A stretch of 24,934 bases of DNA, from contig JAILZY010000051.1 in NCBI GenBank assembly GCA_023512255.1, forward strand, positions 1 to 24,934. Reading direction: 5' to 3'. The notes beneath the pieces were generated by a model that saw only the letters and a program-made list of their open reading frames with translations, did not search any database and was not told where the DNA came from. Shown here in pieces: positions 248 through 22,238 of this stretch. Position 1 is the first letter of the stretch. Every line of letters begins with the position of its first letter. Origin of the DNA: a bacterium. Lineage in GTDB: Bacteria; SZUA-182; DTGQ01. The translations under genes were made by a program, and so were the position numbers.

Positions 248-292
248 AGCAATAAGTATAGTGTGTTAATACAGTGTGGTAAAACGATTATT

Positions 293-955
293 ATGACAGC
301 ATCGCAAATAAAATCTAAGCACCGAGTTATTCACTATGGCGAGGTATTAACGCCAAAGCATATCGTCAAGGCCATGCTTGATCTAGTCAAGGCGGAATGC
401 GAGCGAATAGAGTCACGATTTTTAGAGCCAGCCTGTGGAACAGGGAATTTCCTCATAGAGGTTCTGGAACGCAAATTAAGGGTTGTAGAAAACCGCTACA
501 GTAAAAGTCAACTGGAATACGAGCGTTATGCGATTCTTGCTCTCTCTTCAATTTATGGAATTGATATTCTTGCAGATAACGTCGAAGAATGCCGCCAGCA
601 GCTTTTTGAGCTCTTTGATGCAGCTTACAGCCGACTCTTTAAGACTAAAGCCAAAAAGCAGTGTCGCCAAGCGGCACGCTACATCCTGAGGCGCAATATC
701 GTTCATGGCGATGCAATTTCGCTGAAAACCGTAGGCGAGAATCCCCGACCGATCATTTTTTCTGAGTGGTCCCTGGTGAATGGCGGTCTTCTTATTAAAC
801 GCCGCGACTTTGCCTTCTATGAACTGGTGAACTGTAGTGAGACGCGAAAGCTACCGATTTTATCAGACCTTGGCGAGGAGGCGTTTATTCCAGAGCCGAT
901 TAAAGACTACCCGCCTGTGGATTTTCTTGAGGTGCCCAATGCCTACAATGACTAG
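293..955 (+). CDS. N6-adenine DNA methylase-like subunit (small)
   Basis: This 220-aa protein resembles the N-terminal, S-adenosylmethionine-binding part of N6-adenine DNA methylases. It contains [10 protein letters not shown] (about 16-25), the cofactor-binding motif [12 protein letters not shown] (44-54) and NIVHGDA (135-141). I see no NPPY/DPPY catalytic tetrapeptide, so it probably does not methylate alone and works with the next gene product, which has one. The ATG at 293 is preferred over an upstream GTG at 263 because the family-like sequence begins soon after it and the promoter lies at 239-247. Its 3' end overlaps the start of the next gene by 17 bp, indicating an operon with translational coupling. 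Length is short compared with stand-alone methylases. The identity of the fold is confident; the division of labour is inference. Confidence 0.75.
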
Positions 956-2129
956 CTATAACCCTGATGTCCTATCTTGTCTGGCTAATCTCTCTAGTGA
1001 TGAGATTTTCACCCCACCGCAGCTTGCTAACCAGATACTGGACCTCTTGCCGCAAGGCTTGTGGAGTGATCCTGAAGCCCGCTTTCTTGATCCGGCTTGC
1101 AAGTCAGGCGTTTTTCTGCGCGAGATTGCCAGGCGTCTTGATAATGGTCTTGAGGCAAAGATTCCCGACCGGCAGGAGCGCATCAACCACATCATGAAAA
1201 ACCAGCTCTTCGGCATCGCTATTACGGAGCTGACCGGAATGCTCTCCCGGCGCTCCCTTTACTGCTCCAAGACCGCTAACGGCAAGTATTCGGTCTGCAC
1301 TGTTTTTGATGCCCCACAGGGTAACCTCCGCTTCCAGCGCATTGAGCATAACTGGCGAAAAGGCCGATGTTTGTTCTGTGGGGCGAATGAGAAAAATTAC
1401 GCCCGAGGCAAAGAGCTGGAGACCCACGCCTATGAGTTTATCCACACTGAAAACCCGGAGGAGATATTCAATATGAAATTCGATGTTATTATCGGCAATC
1501 CGCCATATCAGTTGAGCGACGGGGGATATGGTGAAAGTGCGCGCCCTATCTATCATTTGTTTGTTGGGCAGGCAAAGAAATTGAACCCGCGCTACTTAAC
1601 AATGATTATTCCCGCCCGATGGTTTGCAGGAGGCAAGGGACTAGATGAATTCCGTGATTGTATGCTCCATGACTACCGTATTTCTCACCTCATTGACTAT
1701 CCTGTTGCTTCTGATGTCTTCCCTGGCATCAAGATCATTGGAGGTGTTTGTTTTTTCTTGTGGGAACGCGACTACAAGGGGCCGTGTAAAGTAACGACAA
1801 ATATGAATAATTGTACAGACACCATGACGCGGCCACTTGACGAATTTGAGATGTTTGTTCGTTTTAATAAGGCGATTTCTATAATCAAGAAAGTGGCACA
1901 AAAGAATTACCCACGAATGAGTGATCAAGTATCTAGCAGGAAGCCATTCGGCCTTCCGACGACCAGCCGCCCTACTGGGAAGGGGAATATTCGGTTATAT
2001 GCAACAAAGACTGTTGGCCTAATAGAGCGATCTTGTATTCCAACTGGGGTGGAACTGATTGATAAATGGAAAGTTCTTATTCCCAAAGGATACGGCGAGG
2101 GGGGGAAAGTAGAGAGTATCCTAGAATGA
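939..2129 (+). CDS. Eco57I-like N6-adenine DNA methylase, interrupted by frameshift
   Basis: The 396-aa product carries [12 protein letters not shown] (23-34), a motif I variant [10 protein letters not shown] (51-60) and the catalytic motif [13 protein letters not shown] (181-191). This places it in the N6-adenine methylases of restriction-modification systems. Cysteines at 109, 120, 144 and 147 (C-x10-C and C-x2-C) could form a zinc site between motifs. The ATG at 939 is chosen because GAGG at 929-932 sits 6 bp upstream; the frame is open further upstream but there only overlaps the first gene. The reading frame ends early at a TGA (2127-2129). The expected family C-terminus continues in another frame from about 2105 to 2452, so the gene has lost one G, or needs a -1 shift, at the G run 2099-2105. 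Whether an active methylase is made is uncertain. Confidence 0.75.
2099..2105 (+). other. frameshift site: run of seven G in the methylase gene
   Basis: Upstream of this run the methylase is read in one frame; downstream the conserved C-terminus is in the -1 frame. Re-reading one G, or adding one G, joins the two without a stop codon. This could be a genuine indel, a phase-variable or slippery tract, or a homopolymer sequencing or assembly error. Confidence 0.7.
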
Positions 2130-2452
2130 TCATCGGCAAGCCAATTGTGGCGGCTCCTCCTAGTGCTTGCACAGAAACATATATCGTCGCTGGATGCTAT
2201 GATAGACAGGACTACGCCAAGAACTTAGCGCAATATATTAAGACTAAATTCTTCCGCTTCATGGTAGGGCTGCTAAAAAACACTCAAGACACGACAAAAG
2301 ATCGTTTTGCCTTTGTCCCACTGCTTCCTATGACAAAGAAATGGACGGACGAGAAACTATACGCGCATTTCGGCTTAACCCAGGACGAGATCGCCTTTAT
2401 CGAAAAGATGATTCGCCCGATGGATGCTGACATGGAGTCCCCAAATGGCTAA
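2126..2452 (+). CDS. C-terminal fragment of the Eco57I-like methylase
   Basis: This is the detached C-terminal part of the preceding methylase (108 aa from ATG 2126). It begins [11 protein letters not shown] and includes CTETYIVAG, an FFRFMVGL segment, and the terminal [17 protein letters not shown] and [14 protein letters not shown]. This pattern is typical of the target-recognition and C-terminal end of these methylases. The ATG at 2126 overlaps the upstream TGA (2127-2129) in an ATGA arrangement, so termination-reinitiation could produce the fragment as a separate polypeptide. The frame itself is open from before the G run, which favours a frameshifted single gene. The stop at 2450-2452 overlaps the start of the helicase gene. 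Being a piece of the methylase is clear; separate translation is inference. Confidence 0.6.
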
Positions 2453-4943
2453 CAACTTTTTCCCACCCCGCCCAAAGGTTCAGCCGAAAATCTACGCCTA
2501 CGAGGACACCAACCCGCAGTATGCGAGCCTGCTCAAGATAGGCTACACCACGAAGGATGTCCGCCAGCGTGTAGGGGAGCAGTACCCAACGCTTAGGCCG
2601 GGCCAGCTGCCCTACCGCATCGTGCTTGAAGAGCCGGCCATGTGCCGCGACGGCACAGGCTTTACCGACCGCGATGTGCATCGGATGCTTCGGCTCAATG
2701 GTATACGCAACGAAGGCGGCGAATGGTTCCGCTGCACGGTCGAGCAGCTCAAGGCGGCTATTAACGCCGTTCGGGAAGGGCAGCTTTTTGAAGAACAGCG
2801 CTCGCTCAATTTCAGGATGCGGCCGGAGCAAGAGGCTGCGGTCGAAAAAACGCTTGCTTATTTTAAGAGATGGCCCTGCGACGTGGGGGATAAGCCGCCG
2901 CATTTTTTGTGGAACTGCAAGATGCGCTTTGGCAAGACCTTTGCTGCCTATCAACTGGCCAAACGGATGGGGTGGAAGAAGATTCTCGTCCTGACTTTCA
3001 AGCCAGCGGTGCAGAGCGCCTGGGAAGAAGATTTAAGATGCCATGTAGATTTTCAGGGCTGGCAGTTCATCAAGCCCGGCGGTCTTACTTATGAACAGGC
3101 AGATAAAACGAAGCCCATTGTCTGCTTTGGTTCGTTTCAGGATTATCTCGGACGAAACCCAAACACTGGCGGCCTCAAGACAAAGAATGAGTGGGTGCAC
3201 GCCACGCACTGGGATTGCGTGATTTTCGATGAGTACCACTATGGCGCTTGGCGGCAGAAGGCCAAAGATCTGTTTGAGGCAGAAGATGAGCTGGAGCGGA
3301 AAGCAGCCGAAGGCGAGGACATTGATTACTTCGATGAAGATATACTTCCCATAACATCAGACCATTACCTATATCTTTCCGGCACGCCGTTTCGAGCCAT
3401 AGCCACGGGCGAGTTTATCGAAGAGCAGATTTACAACTGGACCTATCTGGACGAACAAAAAGCAAAAGCAGACTGGCCAGGGCCTGACGACAACCCCTAT
3501 GCCGCCTTGCCGCGCATGGTGCTTTTGACTTACCAGATGCCAGACGCTATCCGGGAGGTGGCCATGGGGGGTGAGTTCAATGAGTTTGATCTGAATGTCT
3601 TCTTCTCAGCAGAGGGTGTCGGCGACAAGGCAAGGTTTAAATATGAAGAGGAGGTGCAAAAGTGGCTAGACCTCATTCGGGGAGCAGATCTTCCGACCAG
3701 CATTGACAACCTCAAACTCGGTGCCCAAAAGCCACCGCTTCCATTTTCTGATGTGCGGCTTTTGAGTTTGCTTTCACATACCTTGTGGTTTTTGCCTAGC
3801 GTTGCCTCCTGCTACGCCATGCGGAATCTTTTAGCCAAGAAGCAAAACCGCTTTTATCACGACTACAAAGTCATTGTCGCCGCGGGCAGCGCCGCAGGGA
3901 TCGGCGTTGCCGCCTTGCTGCCGGTGCTGGAGGCGATGGGCGATCCGCTTAAGACTAAAACCATCACCCTAACTTGCGGTAAGCTGACCACAGGGGTTAC
4001 GGTCCGGCCTTGGACGGGCATTTTTATGCTGCGTAACTCCTCCAGCCCTGAGACATACTTTCAAGCCGCTTTTCGAGTGCAGAATCCGTGGACGATAAAA
4101 AATCCTGACGGCACTTCTCCTAACCAGGAATTAATTATTAAAGAAGAGTGCTACGTTTTTGACTTTGCCCCAAATCGCGCCTTGCGGCAGATCGCAGACT
4201 ATAGCTGCCGACTGAACGTCAATGAAGATGATCCTGAAAAGAAGGTTGAGGAATTCATCCGCTTTCTGCCGGTGCTGGCCTATGACGGAAGCTCCATGAA
4301 GCAGATAGACGCCGCCGGTGTTCTGGACATGGCCATGAGCGGCACCACGGCCACACTGCTGGCGAGACGATGGGAAAGCGCCCTGCTGGTGAATGTGGAC
4401 AATGACACCCTGCGGCGGCTGATAAATAATGAGCAGGCCATGAAGGCTCTGATGAGCATCGAGGGGTTTAGGAATCTTAACCAGGATATCGAAACCATTA
4501 TCAATAAATCTGAAGCTGTGAAAAAGGCCAAAAAAGAGGCAAACGACAGAGAGCTTTCCCCAGGGGAGAAAAAACAACTGACGGAAGAGGAGAGGGAATA
4601 CAAAAATCTTAGAAAGAAGATTCAAGAAAAACTTATTAAGTTTGCCACCCGAATACCTATCTTCATGTATCTAACGGATTATCGAGAGATGACTCTAAAA
4701 GATGTGATCACACAATTGGAACCGAGCTTGTTTAAAAAGGTAACCGGGCTGACGAAGGAAGACTTTGAGCTACTGGTTAGCCTCGGCGTTTTCAACAGCG
4801 CTCTTATGAACGATGCGGTGTATAAGTTCAAAAGATACGAGGACCCAAGCCTCGTTTATACAGGTATCAACAGGCATGAGGGAGAGGATATCGGCCTCTA
4901 CGATACGGTTTTGCGCCGATCGGACTATAATCTTTTGAGCTGA
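2445..4943 (+). CDS. GIY-YIG (T5orf172-type) nuclease fused to superfamily 2 helicase
   Basis: This 832-aa protein has two modules. Residues about 15-100 look like a GIY-YIG nuclease of the T5orf172/MUG113 type: KIYAYED, LLKIGYT (29-35), R40, H79 and GEWF (92-95), the last carrying the likely metal-binding glutamate. Residues about 120-560 are an SF2 helicase: Walker A-like CKMRFGKTF (158-166), motif II DEYH (262-265), LSGTPFRA (311-318), GKLTTGVTV (512-520) and YFQAAFRVQNPW (538-549). The remainder is helical and charged, possibly for partner contact. It is probably the ATP-driven cleavage subunit partnering the two methylase-like proteins, so the operon is a restriction-modification system in which GIY-YIG replaces the usual PD-(D/E)XK nuclease. 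ATG 2445 is chosen over 2424 because GGAG at 2434-2437 lies 7 bp upstream; it overlaps the preceding stop. All key helicase residues are intact. Confidence 0.85.
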   Translation: MANNFFPPRPKVQPKIYAYEDTNPQYASLLKIGYTTKDVRQRVGEQYPTLRPGQLPYRIVLEEPAMCRDGTGFTDRDVHRMLRLNGIRNEGGEWFRCTVEQLKAAINAVREGQLFEEQRSLNFRMRPEQEAAVEKTLAYFKRWPCDVGDKPPHFLWNCKMRFGKTFAAYQLAKRMGWKKILVLTFKPAVQSAWEEDLRCHVDFQGWQFIKPGGLTYEQADKTKPIVCFGSFQDYLGRNPNTGGLKTKNEWVHATHWDCVIFDEYHYGAWRQKAKDLFEAEDELERKAAEGEDIDYFDEDILPITSDHYLYLSGTPFRAIATGEFIEEQIYNWTYLDEQKAKADWPGPDDNPYAALPRMVLLTYQMPDAIREVAMGGEFNEFDLNVFFSAEGVGDKARFKYEEEVQKWLDLIRGADLPTSIDNLKLGAQKPPLPFSDVRLLSLLSHTLWFLPSVASCYAMRNLLAKKQNRFYHDYKVIVAAGSAAGIGVAALLPVLEAMGDPLKTKTITLTCGKLTTGVTVRPWTGIFMLRNSSSPETYFQAAFRVQNPWTIKNPDGTSPNQELIIKEECYVFDFAPNRALRQIADYSCRLNVNEDDPEKKVEEFIRFLPVLAYDGSSMKQIDAAGVLDMAMSGTTATLLARRWESALLVNVDNDTLRRLINNEQAMKALMSIEGFRNLNQDIETIINKSEAVKKAKKEANDRELSPGEKKQLTEEEREYKNLRKKIQEKLIKFATRIPIFMYLTDYREMTLKDVITQLEPSLFKKVTGLTKEDFELLVSLGVFNSALMNDAVYKFKRYEDPSLVYTGINRHEGEDIGLYDTVLRRSDYNLLS

Positions 4944-7418: not shown

Positions 7419-9704
7419 ATGAGTTTTCTGACCCTGGTTAATGTGTTCAGTTTTCTGGCACATACATTTTTGGCGATTTTTGTGTTGGTAAAAAATCCGA
7501 AAGCCTCGCTCAACAGGGTAGGTGCGGCCCTAATCGGCTGTTTCGCTATCTGGAGTTTCGGGGCGATGTTCATGTGCAATCACTATATTCCCAAGAAGAT
7601 AGCCTGGCTACTTTTAGATATTATTTTCTTTGGCTCGGCCTGGTTCATGGGGCTTACTTTCAGGTTTTACCTTATTTTTACTGAAAGGAAAGAGTTGCTG
7701 GAAAAGAAGACATTCTGGATGCTTAGTCTTTGTTTTCCCATGCTTTTCATTTATCTTCAATGGAGGCAGCGAGCCATAATCGCCGATGTGATTGAGGTAA
7801 GTTATGGATGGACCCTGCTCTGGGCACGTTCAAGCTGGGCCTATATCTATGAATTTTATTATTTTTTGTCGATCACAGTCGCCCTTTATCTCCTGGTTGA
7901 TTTTTTGAGAAAAACAAAATCGCCGATCAAAAGAAAACATACCCTAGTGGTTATGACCGCCAAAAGTATCACCTTTATTTCAGGAACAACAACCGATATC
8001 CTGCTTCCGCACCTGCTCAATATTCATAGTGTTCCGGTTATGGGGAATGTTTTTGCCCTCGTCTGGATAGCTGGACTGGTCTATGCGATTGTCAAATATA
8101 AACTTTTTACCGTCAACCTGGCTACAGCAGCGGAAAATATTATTTCCACCATGACCGACTGCCTCATTCTCCTTGATCCGCAAGGGAGAGTGCAGCGGGC
8201 CAATGAGGCCTGTCGCCAGATGCTGGGATATAGCGAGCATCAGCTCAAGGGGAAGCCGCTGAATATCCTTCTTTCCCCGGAGCAGGCGGAAAATACCTAT
8301 CTTGGGGAAACGATGAGCGGAAAGAATCTCTCTAATTTTTACCTGACGCTCAGAGCAGAGGATGGAAAGCAGGTTCCGGTCAGCCTCTCTACGGCTGTTC
8401 TCTTCGATGAAGAGGGCGGAAGAGCCGGAACTGTCTGGATAGCCCGCGATATCACCGAGCGCAAGCAGGCAGAGGAGGAGAAGGCTAAGATTCAGGCTCA
8501 ACTTCTTCAGTCTCAAAAAATGGAAGCTATCGGCCTTTTGGCTGGCGGTGTGGCTCATGATTTCAATAACTTGCTGACCACTATTCAGGGATATATCAGC
8601 CTAGCTCTGATGAATATCCCTGATACTGATCCCATTGCTCTGGACCTAAATCAGGCCAGGCAGGCGGCTGGTCGGGCTGCAAATCTTACCCGCCAGCTGC
8701 TTCTCTTCAGCCGTAAGCAGCCAATGGAGCCAGCTCCTGTTGATCTTAACTATCTGATTGATAATCTGGTTAAAATGCTCCACCGTCTCCTCGGTGAGGA
8801 CATCACCATTACTACTGAGCTTGAACCAGATCTTTGGTTAATCTGGGCTGATGAGGGAACGATCGAGCAGGTAATCATGAACCTGGCAGTCAATGCCAGG
8901 GATGCCATGCCAAAAGGGGGCAAGCTGACCATCAGCACAGGAAACGTAACCTTGGATGAAGAGGCTGCTCGATGCCTTTCTGAGGCCCGGCCGGGGAAAT
9001 TTGTCTTTCTTCGGATTGCAGATACTGGATACGGCATGGATAAAAAGACTATGGAGCGAATCTTTGAACCCTTTTTCACCACCAAGGAGATCGGAAAGGG
9101 GACCGGCCTTGGTCTTTCAGTGGTCTACGGCATTGTCAAGCAACATGATGGGTGGATAAACGTTTCCAGCAGCCCAGACAAAGGATCGGTATTTACGGTT
9201 TATCTGCCAGCCATGAGCTTATTGGCTGAATGTAAGCGGCGAGAGGAGATTTCCTTGCAAAGTCTTAAGGGCAGGAATGAGCGGATTTTGATGGTCGAGG
9301 ATGAGGATGCGGTTCGCACCCCGACCGTCAGGATACTCATCGAGAACAACTACCGGGTGAGCGAAGCTTCAAGCGGGCAGGAGGCGCTGGAGACCTTTAG
9401 CCTAGAGGGCGGAGGGTTTGATCTAGCATTAATTGATGTGGTGCTTCCCGATCAAACCGGCCTTGAGCTGGCTGAGCAGCTTCTGATACGTCAGCCTGAG
9501 CTTAAGATTCTTATGACCAGCGGATATACTGATCATAAGTCACAGTGGCCGGCTATCCAAAAGAGGGGATTTGGGTTCATTCAGAAGCCTTATGCCTTGG
9601 ATGATCTGCTCTTGAAGGTGCGACAAATACTGGAGACAGGAAAGGTTAAAGAAGGGGAAAACCCTTTTGAAAAAGGGTTTTCCCCTTCTAAACCCCTTTC
9701 CTAA
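7419..9704 (+). CDS. hybrid sensor histidine kinase (7TM-PAS-HisKA-HATPase-REC)
   Basis: The 761-aa membrane sensor kinase has seven or so hydrophobic segments over residues 1-230 (His-kinase N-terminal 7TM type). A PAS domain (about 235-350) ends in ARDITERKQAEE. Then come the phospho-acceptor helix AGGVAHDFNNLL (H380), the N box NLAVNARDAM (N488, N492), G1 DTGYGM (535-540) and G2 GTGLGLS (561-567). A C-terminal receiver domain has acidic residues at 628-630, phospho-acceptor D673 and K723. All catalytic residues are present, so it should autophosphorylate and pass phosphate to its own receiver. No output regulator lies beside it. An imperfect Shine-Dalgarno (AAGGAA) precedes ATG 7419. The last 17 residues (745-761, from EGENPFEKG) are encoded by the inverted-repeat element at 9651-9780, so the original C-terminus has been replaced or extended. 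Signal and partners are unknown. Confidence 0.92.
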   Translation: MSFLTLVNVFSFLAHTFLAIFVLVKNPKASLNRVGAALIGCFAIWSFGAMFMCNHYIPKKIAWLLLDIIFFGSAWFMGLTFRFYLIFTERKELLEKKTFWMLSLCFPMLFIYLQWRQRAIIADVIEVSYGWTLLWARSSWAYIYEFYYFLSITVALYLLVDFLRKTKSPIKRKHTLVVMTAKSITFISGTTTDILLPHLLNIHSVPVMGNVFALVWIAGLVYAIVKYKLFTVNLATAAENIISTMTDCLILLDPQGRVQRANEACRQMLGYSEHQLKGKPLNILLSPEQAENTYLGETMSGKNLSNFYLTLRAEDGKQVPVSLSTAVLFDEEGGRAGTVWIARDITERKQAEEEKAKIQAQLLQSQKMEAIGLLAGGVAHDFNNLLTTIQGYISLALMNIPDTDPIALDLNQARQAAGRAANLTRQLLLFSRKQPMEPAPVDLNYLIDNLVKMLHRLLGEDITITTELEPDLWLIWADEGTIEQVIMNLAVNARDAMPKGGKLTISTGNVTLDEEAARCLSEARPGKFVFLRIADTGYGMDKKTMERIFEPFFTTKEIGKGTGLGLSVVYGIVKQHDGWINVSSSPDKGSVFTVYLPAMSLLAECKRREEISLQSLKGRNERILMVEDEDAVRTPTVRILIENNYRVSEASSGQEALETFSLEGGGFDLALIDVVLPDQTGLELAEQLLIRQPELKILMTSGYTDHKSQWPAIQKRGFGFIQKPYALDDLLLKVRQILETGKVKEGENPFEKGFSPSKPLS

Positions 9705-9780
9705 AACTTTAATATTAAGATATTAAAGTTTTAGGAGGATGGTTTGGAAGGAACCCTTTTTCAAAAGGGTTCCTTCCAAA
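9651..9780 (+). repeat. triple-hairpin palindromic element, copy A
   Basis: Three consecutive perfect inverted repeats occur. Hairpin 1 is 9651-9688, two 18-bp arms (GAAGGGGAAAACCCTTTT and its complement) around GA. Hairpin 2 is 9700-9735, 15-bp arms (CCTAAAACTTTAATA) with a 6-nt loop. Hairpin 3 is 9743-9780, 18-bp arms (TTTGGAAGGAACCCTTTT) around TC. Hairpins 1 and 3 share the core AACCCTTTT. A related copy in inverted orientation lies at 22079-22238, which shows that this is a dispersed element. It begins inside the kinase gene and provides its stop codon. It may terminate or protect the kinase transcript. Confidence 0.9.
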
Positions 9781-15335: not shown

Positions 15336-16709
15336 ATGGGAAAAAAACGGACGGAGTTTTTGAAAGTTATTAGTAATCATCCGATCTTTGTATTTTTGGT
15401 GGTTATTTGTAGTTTGGTTTTATTCTCTGGAAAAGGGACAGCTCAGTTTTTCCCCTTGCCTTTTGGCGGTCCTGCTGTGTTCGGAGGGGCCCCTCCTTTT
15501 GGTGTGGGAATTGGCGGCTTTGCCCCTCTAGGGATCGGAGCCGGCGGCTTTGCCCCGATGCTTGGATTTCCTTCCTTTCCCGTGATGAGCGATCCCTTTG
15601 CCCTGATATTAGGGCCAGCTTATCCTGCTTCTGGCTTTGGCTGGCAGCAGCCGCCTGTCCAGCCAACACTTATGCAGCCTTCGGGCATGTTCGGAGCGAT
15701 AGCCCCTATCCAAGGGCCATCTTCACCATCCATACAACCTCCCTTTGGCTCACCCTATGGATCTTATGGAGCCACTATGCCAGCCGGCTCCTATGGAGTC
15801 GCTATGCCGCCAACCGGCTTATATGCTCTGCCGACAAATATGCTAAATTATGGATCAAGCCCGTATGTTGCTCAATCATATGGTGCGTATGCTCCCCAGT
15901 ATAGCACTGCCTCATATCCCCAGTACGGCACCGTCCCATCTGGTGGAGCTTTAATGCCCACCATGCCGGCAAGCTATGGACAGCCTCTGCCAAGCTACGG
16001 ACAGCTTTTCGGAATAACAGTGCCGACAAGCGCACCGGCAGGGTATCTGCCAGCCAGCATAATGCCGACCACTCCAGCAGGCCTCTATCCCCTAGATCCT
16101 CGATATGCTCAAGGGTATAATCCTTATCAGCAACTATCCACTCCTTATCAACAGCCGATATCTAATCCTTATACTCCTTATGGAGGGACATTGTATCCGA
16201 CCACCAATTCTCAGACCTCGGGAAGCTCTGGCTCTAGCTATAGTCAGCAGCAGACGAGCAGCTCAGGCAGCGGTGCCTCTATTCAGGATCTGCCCAATCT
16301 GAGCGCTCTGTGGCAGGGCTCATACACTATCTATGATCCCAATAGCACGAGTTTGAAGGTCTTGAGCGAAGGATTTGTAACCCTAGGGTTGACCCAGAAA
16401 AAGAATGATTATCAGATCAGCGGCTATATGACCGTGACTGGTTGGGAGATAGTGAATGAAAACCAGAGAGGAAGGGTTTTGGCTACGGTCAATTACGCTG
16501 ATAGTGCAAGGATTGATTTTATTAACGTTATTGTCAGATTTTATCCAGAGCTCAAGAACGATGAAGAACCAAAGAGCGACAGTCTACAGTATATTTGGGT
16601 CTTCAGTGGATCAATAAGTAACAATACGCTTCAGGGCAGTCTTAATATTAGCGGACCTAATGGTTATTCAAAAGCCGGAACTATTAATCTAGCTAAAAAG
16701 CAGATCTAG
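15336..16709 (+). CDS. secreted Pro/Gly/Tyr/Ser-rich protein with beta-rich C-terminal domain
   Basis: I do not recognise a family. The 457-aa protein opens with a signal peptide (MGKKRTEFLK, hydrophobic core IFVFLVVICSLVLF, likely cut near GTA/QFF). Residues about 35-310 are low complexity: repeated FAPLGIG-like turns, then Tyr, Pro, Gln, Gly and Ser with many SYG, YGA and PY pieces, ending in a Ser/Gln linker. The last roughly 135 residues (from LWQGSYTIYDP) have alternating polar and hydrophobic residues, suggesting a beta-sandwich or barrel that could bind or anchor. GGAGG at 15320-15324 is 11 bp before ATG 15336; the ATG at 15318 lacks a ribosome-binding site. With the next gene it forms a pair of secreted low-complexity proteins, perhaps surface or matrix material. 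Function is unknown. Confidence 0.7.
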   Translation: MGKKRTEFLKVISNHPIFVFLVVICSLVLFSGKGTAQFFPLPFGGPAVFGGAPPFGVGIGGFAPLGIGAGGFAPMLGFPSFPVMSDPFALILGPAYPASGFGWQQPPVQPTLMQPSGMFGAIAPIQGPSSPSIQPPFGSPYGSYGATMPAGSYGVAMPPTGLYALPTNMLNYGSSPYVAQSYGAYAPQYSTASYPQYGTVPSGGALMPTMPASYGQPLPSYGQLFGITVPTSAPAGYLPASIMPTTPAGLYPLDPRYAQGYNPYQQLSTPYQQPISNPYTPYGGTLYPTTNSQTSGSSGSSYSQQQTSSSGSGASIQDLPNLSALWQGSYTIYDPNSTSLKVLSEGFVTLGLTQKKNDYQISGYMTVTGWEIVNENQRGRVLATVNYADSARIDFINVIVRFYPELKNDEEPKSDSLQYIWVFSGSISNNTLQGSLNISGPNGYSKAGTINLAKKQI

Positions 16710-16734
16710 CTACAGCTAAAAAGCAGATTTAGCT
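16691..16734 (+). repeat. 21-bp near-perfect direct repeat across a stop codon
   Basis: Copies at 16691-16711 and 16714-16734 (AGCTAAAAAGCAGAT, then C or T, then TAGCT) differ at one base. The first copy contains the final codons and stop of the secreted protein gene, so its 3' end has been duplicated. Further on, CCCCCTT (16825-16831) can pair with AAGGGGG (16848-16854); this may be a transcript-end hairpin, although no T-run follows. Confidence 0.55.
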
Positions 16735-22078: not shown

Positions 22079-22238
22079 TTGGAAGGAACCCTTTTGAAAT
22101 TGGAAGGAACCCTTTTGAAAAAGGGTTCCTTCCAAACCATCCTCCTAAAACTTTAACATAATTTTAATATAATTATATTAAAGTTTTGGGAAAGGGGTGG
22201 GAGGGGAAAACCCTTTTTCAAAAGGGTCTTCCCCTCCT
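22079..22238 (-). repeat. triple-hairpin palindromic element, copy B
   Basis: This is the inverted counterpart of the element at 9651-9780. The hairpin at 22100-22135 has perfect 17-bp arms TTGGAAGGAACCCTTTT around GA. A central hairpin at about 22143-22190 uses CCTAAAACTTTAA and TTAAAGTTTTGGG. A hairpin at 22201-22236 has arms starting GAGGGGAAAACCC with one mismatch. The half-arm TTGGAAGGAACCCTTTTGAAA is duplicated in tandem (22079-22099 and 22100-22120). The element begins about 14 bp past the stop of the UDP-sugar dehydrogenase gene. Relative to that gene its order of hairpins is the same as copy A relative to the kinase gene. Confidence 0.88.

Follow-up and report, generated by a model that had tools for sequence, protein, structure and literature searches.

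The window, by which we mean the whole stretch of 24,934 nucleotides that was analysed, carries two copies of a short palindromic element: copy A at 9650-9780 on the forward strand and copy B at 22099-22238 on the reverse strand. Two copies on opposite strands with three stems each had been claimed in the preliminary description, and checking both copies base by base, together with folding, confirmed this. In both copies the left hairpin GGGGAAAACCC..GGGTTTTCCCC is followed by the AT-rich central stem and then by the right hairpin GGAAGGAACCC..GGGTTCCTTCC. The parts of each copy are listed in Table 1. Folding energies of the copies were found to be 9.6-11 standard deviations below those of dinucleotide shuffles (z of -11 as DNA, and of -10.4 and -9.6 as RNA), and none of 200 shuffles was equally stable. 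Elsewhere in the window, positions 263-4943 contain N6-methylase-like ORFs and, after them, a large T5orf172/ResIII helicase ORF, which together are probably a restriction-modification locus. A near-perfect direct repeat AGCTAAAAAGCAGATCTAGCT of 21-23 bp is present at 16691-16734, at the end of an ORF of 463 amino acids.

Table 1. Positions of the two element copies, their parts and the overlapping gene in the window.
Feature	Position	Strand
PAS/histidine kinase/response regulator ORF; last 18 codons and stop inside copy A	7419..9704	+
Copy A hairpin 1 (left-module hairpin), AGAAGGGGAAAACCC..GGGTTTTCCCCTTCT	9650..9689	+
Copy A left-module lead, reverse complement of the tag TTAAAGTTTTAGGAAAGGGGTTT	9690..9715	+
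Copy A central-stem apex (dimer junction); self-complementary, varies among copies	9716..9719	+
Copy A right-module lead ATATTAAAGTTTTAGGAGGATGG	9720..9742	+
Copy A hairpin 3 (right-module hairpin), TTTGGAAGGAACCC..GGGTTCCTTCCAAA	9743..9780	+
Copy B additional direct half-arm (hairpin 3 outer arm repeated over 21 nt)	22079..22099	-
Copy B hairpin 3	22100..22135	-
Copy B central stem: two leads and enlarged apex	22136..22199	-
Copy B hairpin 1	22200..22237	-

The two copies differ in their relation to the neighbouring gene. Copy B begins 14 nt past the stop codon of a UDP-sugar dehydrogenase gene, as expected from the earlier claim that each copy begins close to a stop codon or directly at one. 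The claim does not hold for copy A, where the kinase ORF reads in frame through hairpin 1, gains 18 codons and ends in ..EGENPFEKGFSPSKPLS before its stop.

Analysis of the copies revealed a module of about 58 nt, consisting of a lead TTAAAGTTTTAGGA-(GG/AA)-..GGTTT followed by a perfect hairpin of 14-18 bp with the core CCCTTTTTCAAAAGGG. The element is made of two such modules placed head to head with their leads innermost. All three hairpins described earlier are present; the central one is not an independent unit and results from pairing of the two leads. When the reverse complement of the left half of copy A was compared with its right half, 53 of 54 aligned bases were identical, including the asymmetric core. 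The same comparison gave 46/56 in a more distant genome of the same class (G007), 45/55 in Nitrospinota and 41/58 in R. callidus, all far above shuffles. In most copies GGTTT stands 5' of the right hairpin, and the counterpart in the left module varies (GGTGAT, GGTTAC and others). Four complete copies contain a non-palindromic centre of about 50 nt. Loci L078, L087, L089, L096 and L097 represent a subfamily with a longer non-palindromic centre CTTTTAATAACnnAACC..GGGAATATGACTA.., which may be an older form.

In the 3.83 Mb host genome the core AACCCTTTTnnAAAAGGGTT occurs 117 times, compared with none for the reversed control, and BLAST with copy A returned dozens of matches with 89-95% identity across nearly the full length. 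A covariance model based on 28 copies found 57 strong places, and the model combined with locus reading gave 56 full copies and one truncated by a contig end, near-identical and 125-165 bp in length. The proposal that the element belongs to a dispersed MITE- or REP-like family is borne out by these many copies, the genome-wide covariance-model count being 56-57 strong full-length copies. Among the loci read, at least 34 half copies were also identified (22 left and 12 right); copy and half-copy counts are lower bounds because weaker matches were read in part. Half copies break near the dimer junction or the central apex and are no more diverged than complete copies, seven of eight scored hairpins being identical to the consensus in this small sample of eight singlet hairpins. 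The DNA flanking the copies is unique, half-arm repeats excepted. An additional direct half-arm was found beside the hairpins on the left in 6/56 and on the right in 11/56 complete copies, and in 14/22 left halves, with a spacing of 14-23 nt (mostly 17-21). At loci L098 and L195 at least two successive half-arms, about 15-20 nt apart, lie to the left of hairpin 1 and resemble iterated protein-binding sites. A search for excision scars revealed one scar-like join of half hairpin 1 to half hairpin 3 in the genome. A longer element with a gene between two ends was considered for one pair of halves (C65, about 4 kb) and rejected, since the pair encloses ordinary genes.

The host genome is a MAG from a sparsely sampled class. 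No family match was found in the genome of the same genus (G001), in two genomes of the same family (G002 and G003) or in G004 and G005. At the copy A locus of G001 the neighbouring PfkB is 93% identical and the element is absent; the kinase orthologue ends normally, with GDKVKV and a stop where copy A extends the window kinase. A precise empty site could not be read there because the intergenic DNA is too diverged. Three more distant genomes of the same class (G006, G007 and G008) and a Nitrospinota MAG (G040, CSMAG_3060) carry the identical dimer plan in diverged sequence, and inspection showed that the former three have an additional inverted repeat, about 30-45 nt long, on the outside. When 84,980 species were scanned for the pattern, 12 stretches came up, and 9 of these are real modules by eye: three in the Nitrospinota MAG and six in Bacillota (Ruminococcus sp. 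FC2018, R. callidus, an Oscillospiraceae and a Clostridia MAG). The three remaining stretches, from Treponema and Parcubacteria, were judged by eye not to be modules. With a general model, 11 of 386 sampled genomes gave matches at E 1e-6, several of them weak, the E-values being rough. Common descent across phyla is likely, though the sequence compared is short. Phages, plasmids and viral contigs gave no family match, and a text search for element sequences in published texts returned nothing relevant.

Near-identical copies, many in number, at unrelated sites and missing from close relatives suggest that the family is probably a non-autonomous REPIN-like mobile element, its mobility being deduced from copy identity and absence in relatives. 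Intergenic placement with neither orientation bias nor target-site duplication, breakage of halves at the junction of the dimer and stem covariation belong to the same evidence. Speaking against this reading, half copies are not more diverged, GC skew reveals no strand bias, no precise empty site could be read in G001 and no candidate mobiliser was found.

REP and REPIN sequences are the best-known tiny mobile palindromes of bacteria; repeats of the GTAG type are linked to a single type of transposase, and RAYT tyrosine transposases move REPINs. Analysis of the own genome (a MAG, 96.6% complete) revealed one weak PF01797 match, inside a DNA-methylase-like ORF, with no modules within 1.5 kb. 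Carriers G008 and G040 have no PF01797 match, and element-free G001 has six. No modules were present within about 1.5 kb of the examined Y1 matches of G006 and G007, where positive controls were detected. Mobilisation by RAYT was rejected, as no module-linked Y1 gene was found among the matches examined in the own genome, G006 and G007, and G008 and G040 have no Y1. At L130:1330-2943 (G000:C83:30598-30852) a Y1/REP-type transposase domain occurs in frame within a DNA methyltransferase-like ORF. Apart from common paralogues, the genes next to the copies belong to no recurring family. A matching transposase, which the preliminary description had suggested looking for, was not found: no module-linked RAYT was detected and, among the loci read, no IS and no autonomous or ORF-bearing version with matching termini.

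These results also bear on the possibility of a classical MITE, that is, an internal-deletion derivative of a DDE-transposase IS whose terminal inverted repeats are incidentally palindromic. The family shares with bacterial MITEs its small size, its many repeated and non-coding copies, inverted symmetry and abrupt boundaries, and the centre of about 50 nt in four complete copies could be a remnant. However, no target-site duplication was found at the copies, no related IS or ORF-containing version appeared among the loci read, the neighbouring gene families do not recur, and conservation is highest in hairpins and leads instead of simple termini. A MITE origin is unlikely on this evidence.

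REPINs are REP doublets that form hairpins (PMC3116915). In common with them (PMC3116915), the family consists of extragenic inverted doublets of palindromic modules with a variable spacer, occurs in tens of copies per genome, has no coding capacity, and has more doublets than singlets (here 56 vs 34). It differs from REPINs in that no RAYT gene is tied to the modules, a lead of about 20 nt takes the place of the tetranucleotide tag, the central spacer is itself a conserved stem, and singlets, unlike REP singlets, are not more decayed (small sample). GTAG REPs are defined by a GTAG tetranucleotide directly 5' of the hairpin (PMC3733652, PMC8266576); this tag is absent directly before the hairpins of family copies, and CGTC is absent from either end. 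Stems of 14-18 bp are longer than those of GTAG (5-13 bp) and CGTC (8-9 bp) REPs, with which the family shares short palindromes and frequent head-to-head dimers and, in the case of CGTC REPs, the lack of a dedicated transposase (PMC3733652). Rickettsial palindromic elements, classed as CGTC REPs (PMC3733652), can likewise extend a host ORF in frame, as seen for copy A at the C-terminus of the kinase, but the present family has no CGTC end, and its copies are found intergenically or at the ends of genes instead of inside them. The family works like a REPIN with its own lead sequence; membership of the REPs is not claimed, because the tag is absent, the stems are longer, RAYT linkage fails and halves are not more decayed.

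Placement was scored for 54 copies, with genes called by simple ORF length. Copies between tandem genes are divided 16 vs 15 by orientation, 13 copies lie between divergent genes and 10 between convergent genes. The median distance to a stop codon is about 9 nt, with longer distances to start codons, which agrees with the tendency toward gene 3' ends suggested earlier. Some ORFs terminate within a copy, and no complete copy is inside an ORF. This placement fits neutral intergenic insertion in which harmful insertions are lost. The earlier suggestion that insertion at gene ends was selected for orientation was not upheld: the orientation shared by copies A and B is due to chance, because tandem copies divide 16:15 and divergent genes offer no gene end to the 13 copies between them. 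No strand preference by GC skew was found (31/56), which with 5 kb flanks is a weak test, and this result does not support insertion into lagging-strand single-stranded DNA.

Comparative analysis of 52 aligned copies revealed that 96.7% of stem cells are paired and that two-sided changes number 22, compared with 7.7 in shuffles. Although the central-stem apex occurs as 45 distinct sequences among 56 copies, its two halves pair (consecutive pairs 210 vs 175 +/- 7). At the base of hairpin 1, the bases just outside it agree with the inner spacer in 48/56 copies, against 35 expected and with 0/5000 shuffles reaching this; such shuffle counts overstate the significance of covariation because related copies share history. 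Template switching can produce covariation in DNA (PMC8794818), and covariation was therefore not taken as proof of RNA. Stem mismatches on the + strand comprise 18 G-U and 14 A-C; selection on one-strand RNA would favour one type, and the near-equal frequencies give no sign of it. The Rfam gathering score was reached by no match in the whole window, and the best match of four carrier loci scored 56 bits vs a cut-off of 150.

The highly stable hairpins near stop codons could point to an mRNA 3' end or a bidirectional terminator or stabiliser kept by selection, in line with the transcript-end function proposed in the preliminary description. We consider this very unlikely, since 13 of the 54 copies lie between divergent genes, G-U and A-C mismatches are about equally frequent, the congener genome lacks the family, and copies occur without a T-tract terminator, with no terminator-like site (GC-rich hairpin and T tract) at either window copy. 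Also very unlikely is that replication template switching and recombination mainly spread and perfected the palindromes without a dedicated enzyme: such switching is documented (PMC8794818, PMC7202029) and would suit the two-sided stem changes, the basal pairs covarying with the flank, the half-arm direct repeats and the halves breaking at hairpin apices, but it is local and alone does not explain how over 50 unrelated loci came to carry an intact dimer of 125 bp.

For a non-autonomous REPIN-like mobile element, the dimer would be the spreading unit, either as a folded single strand or as a cruciform, and a trans-acting recombinase other than a linked RAYT would recognise lead and hairpin. Arm-to-arm template switching would keep the stems perfect and leave half-arm duplications, and any role at transcript ends would be secondary. 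More tentatively, the family may represent a third, previously undescribed superfamily of REPIN-like dimers, in which a AAAGTTTTnGGA..GGnTTT lead replaces GTAG/CGTC, with members in several phyla and a non-RAYT enzyme; we put this at somewhat less than an even chance. That unrelated phyla, cultured Ruminococcus among them, have the same dimer logic with another tag and no RAYT makes it possible to test for a second mobilising enzyme. Stem covariation with no sign of RNA selection is also a caution for covariation-based RNA discovery.

Besides this family, a repeat TATGGGGAACATCTGCG / CGCAGATGTTCCCCAT is present in inverted orientation at the contig ends (52-75 and 24857-24880) and recurs beside copies L069, L095, L204 and L206. 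This repeat is possibly another dispersed family or an IS end at an assembly break.
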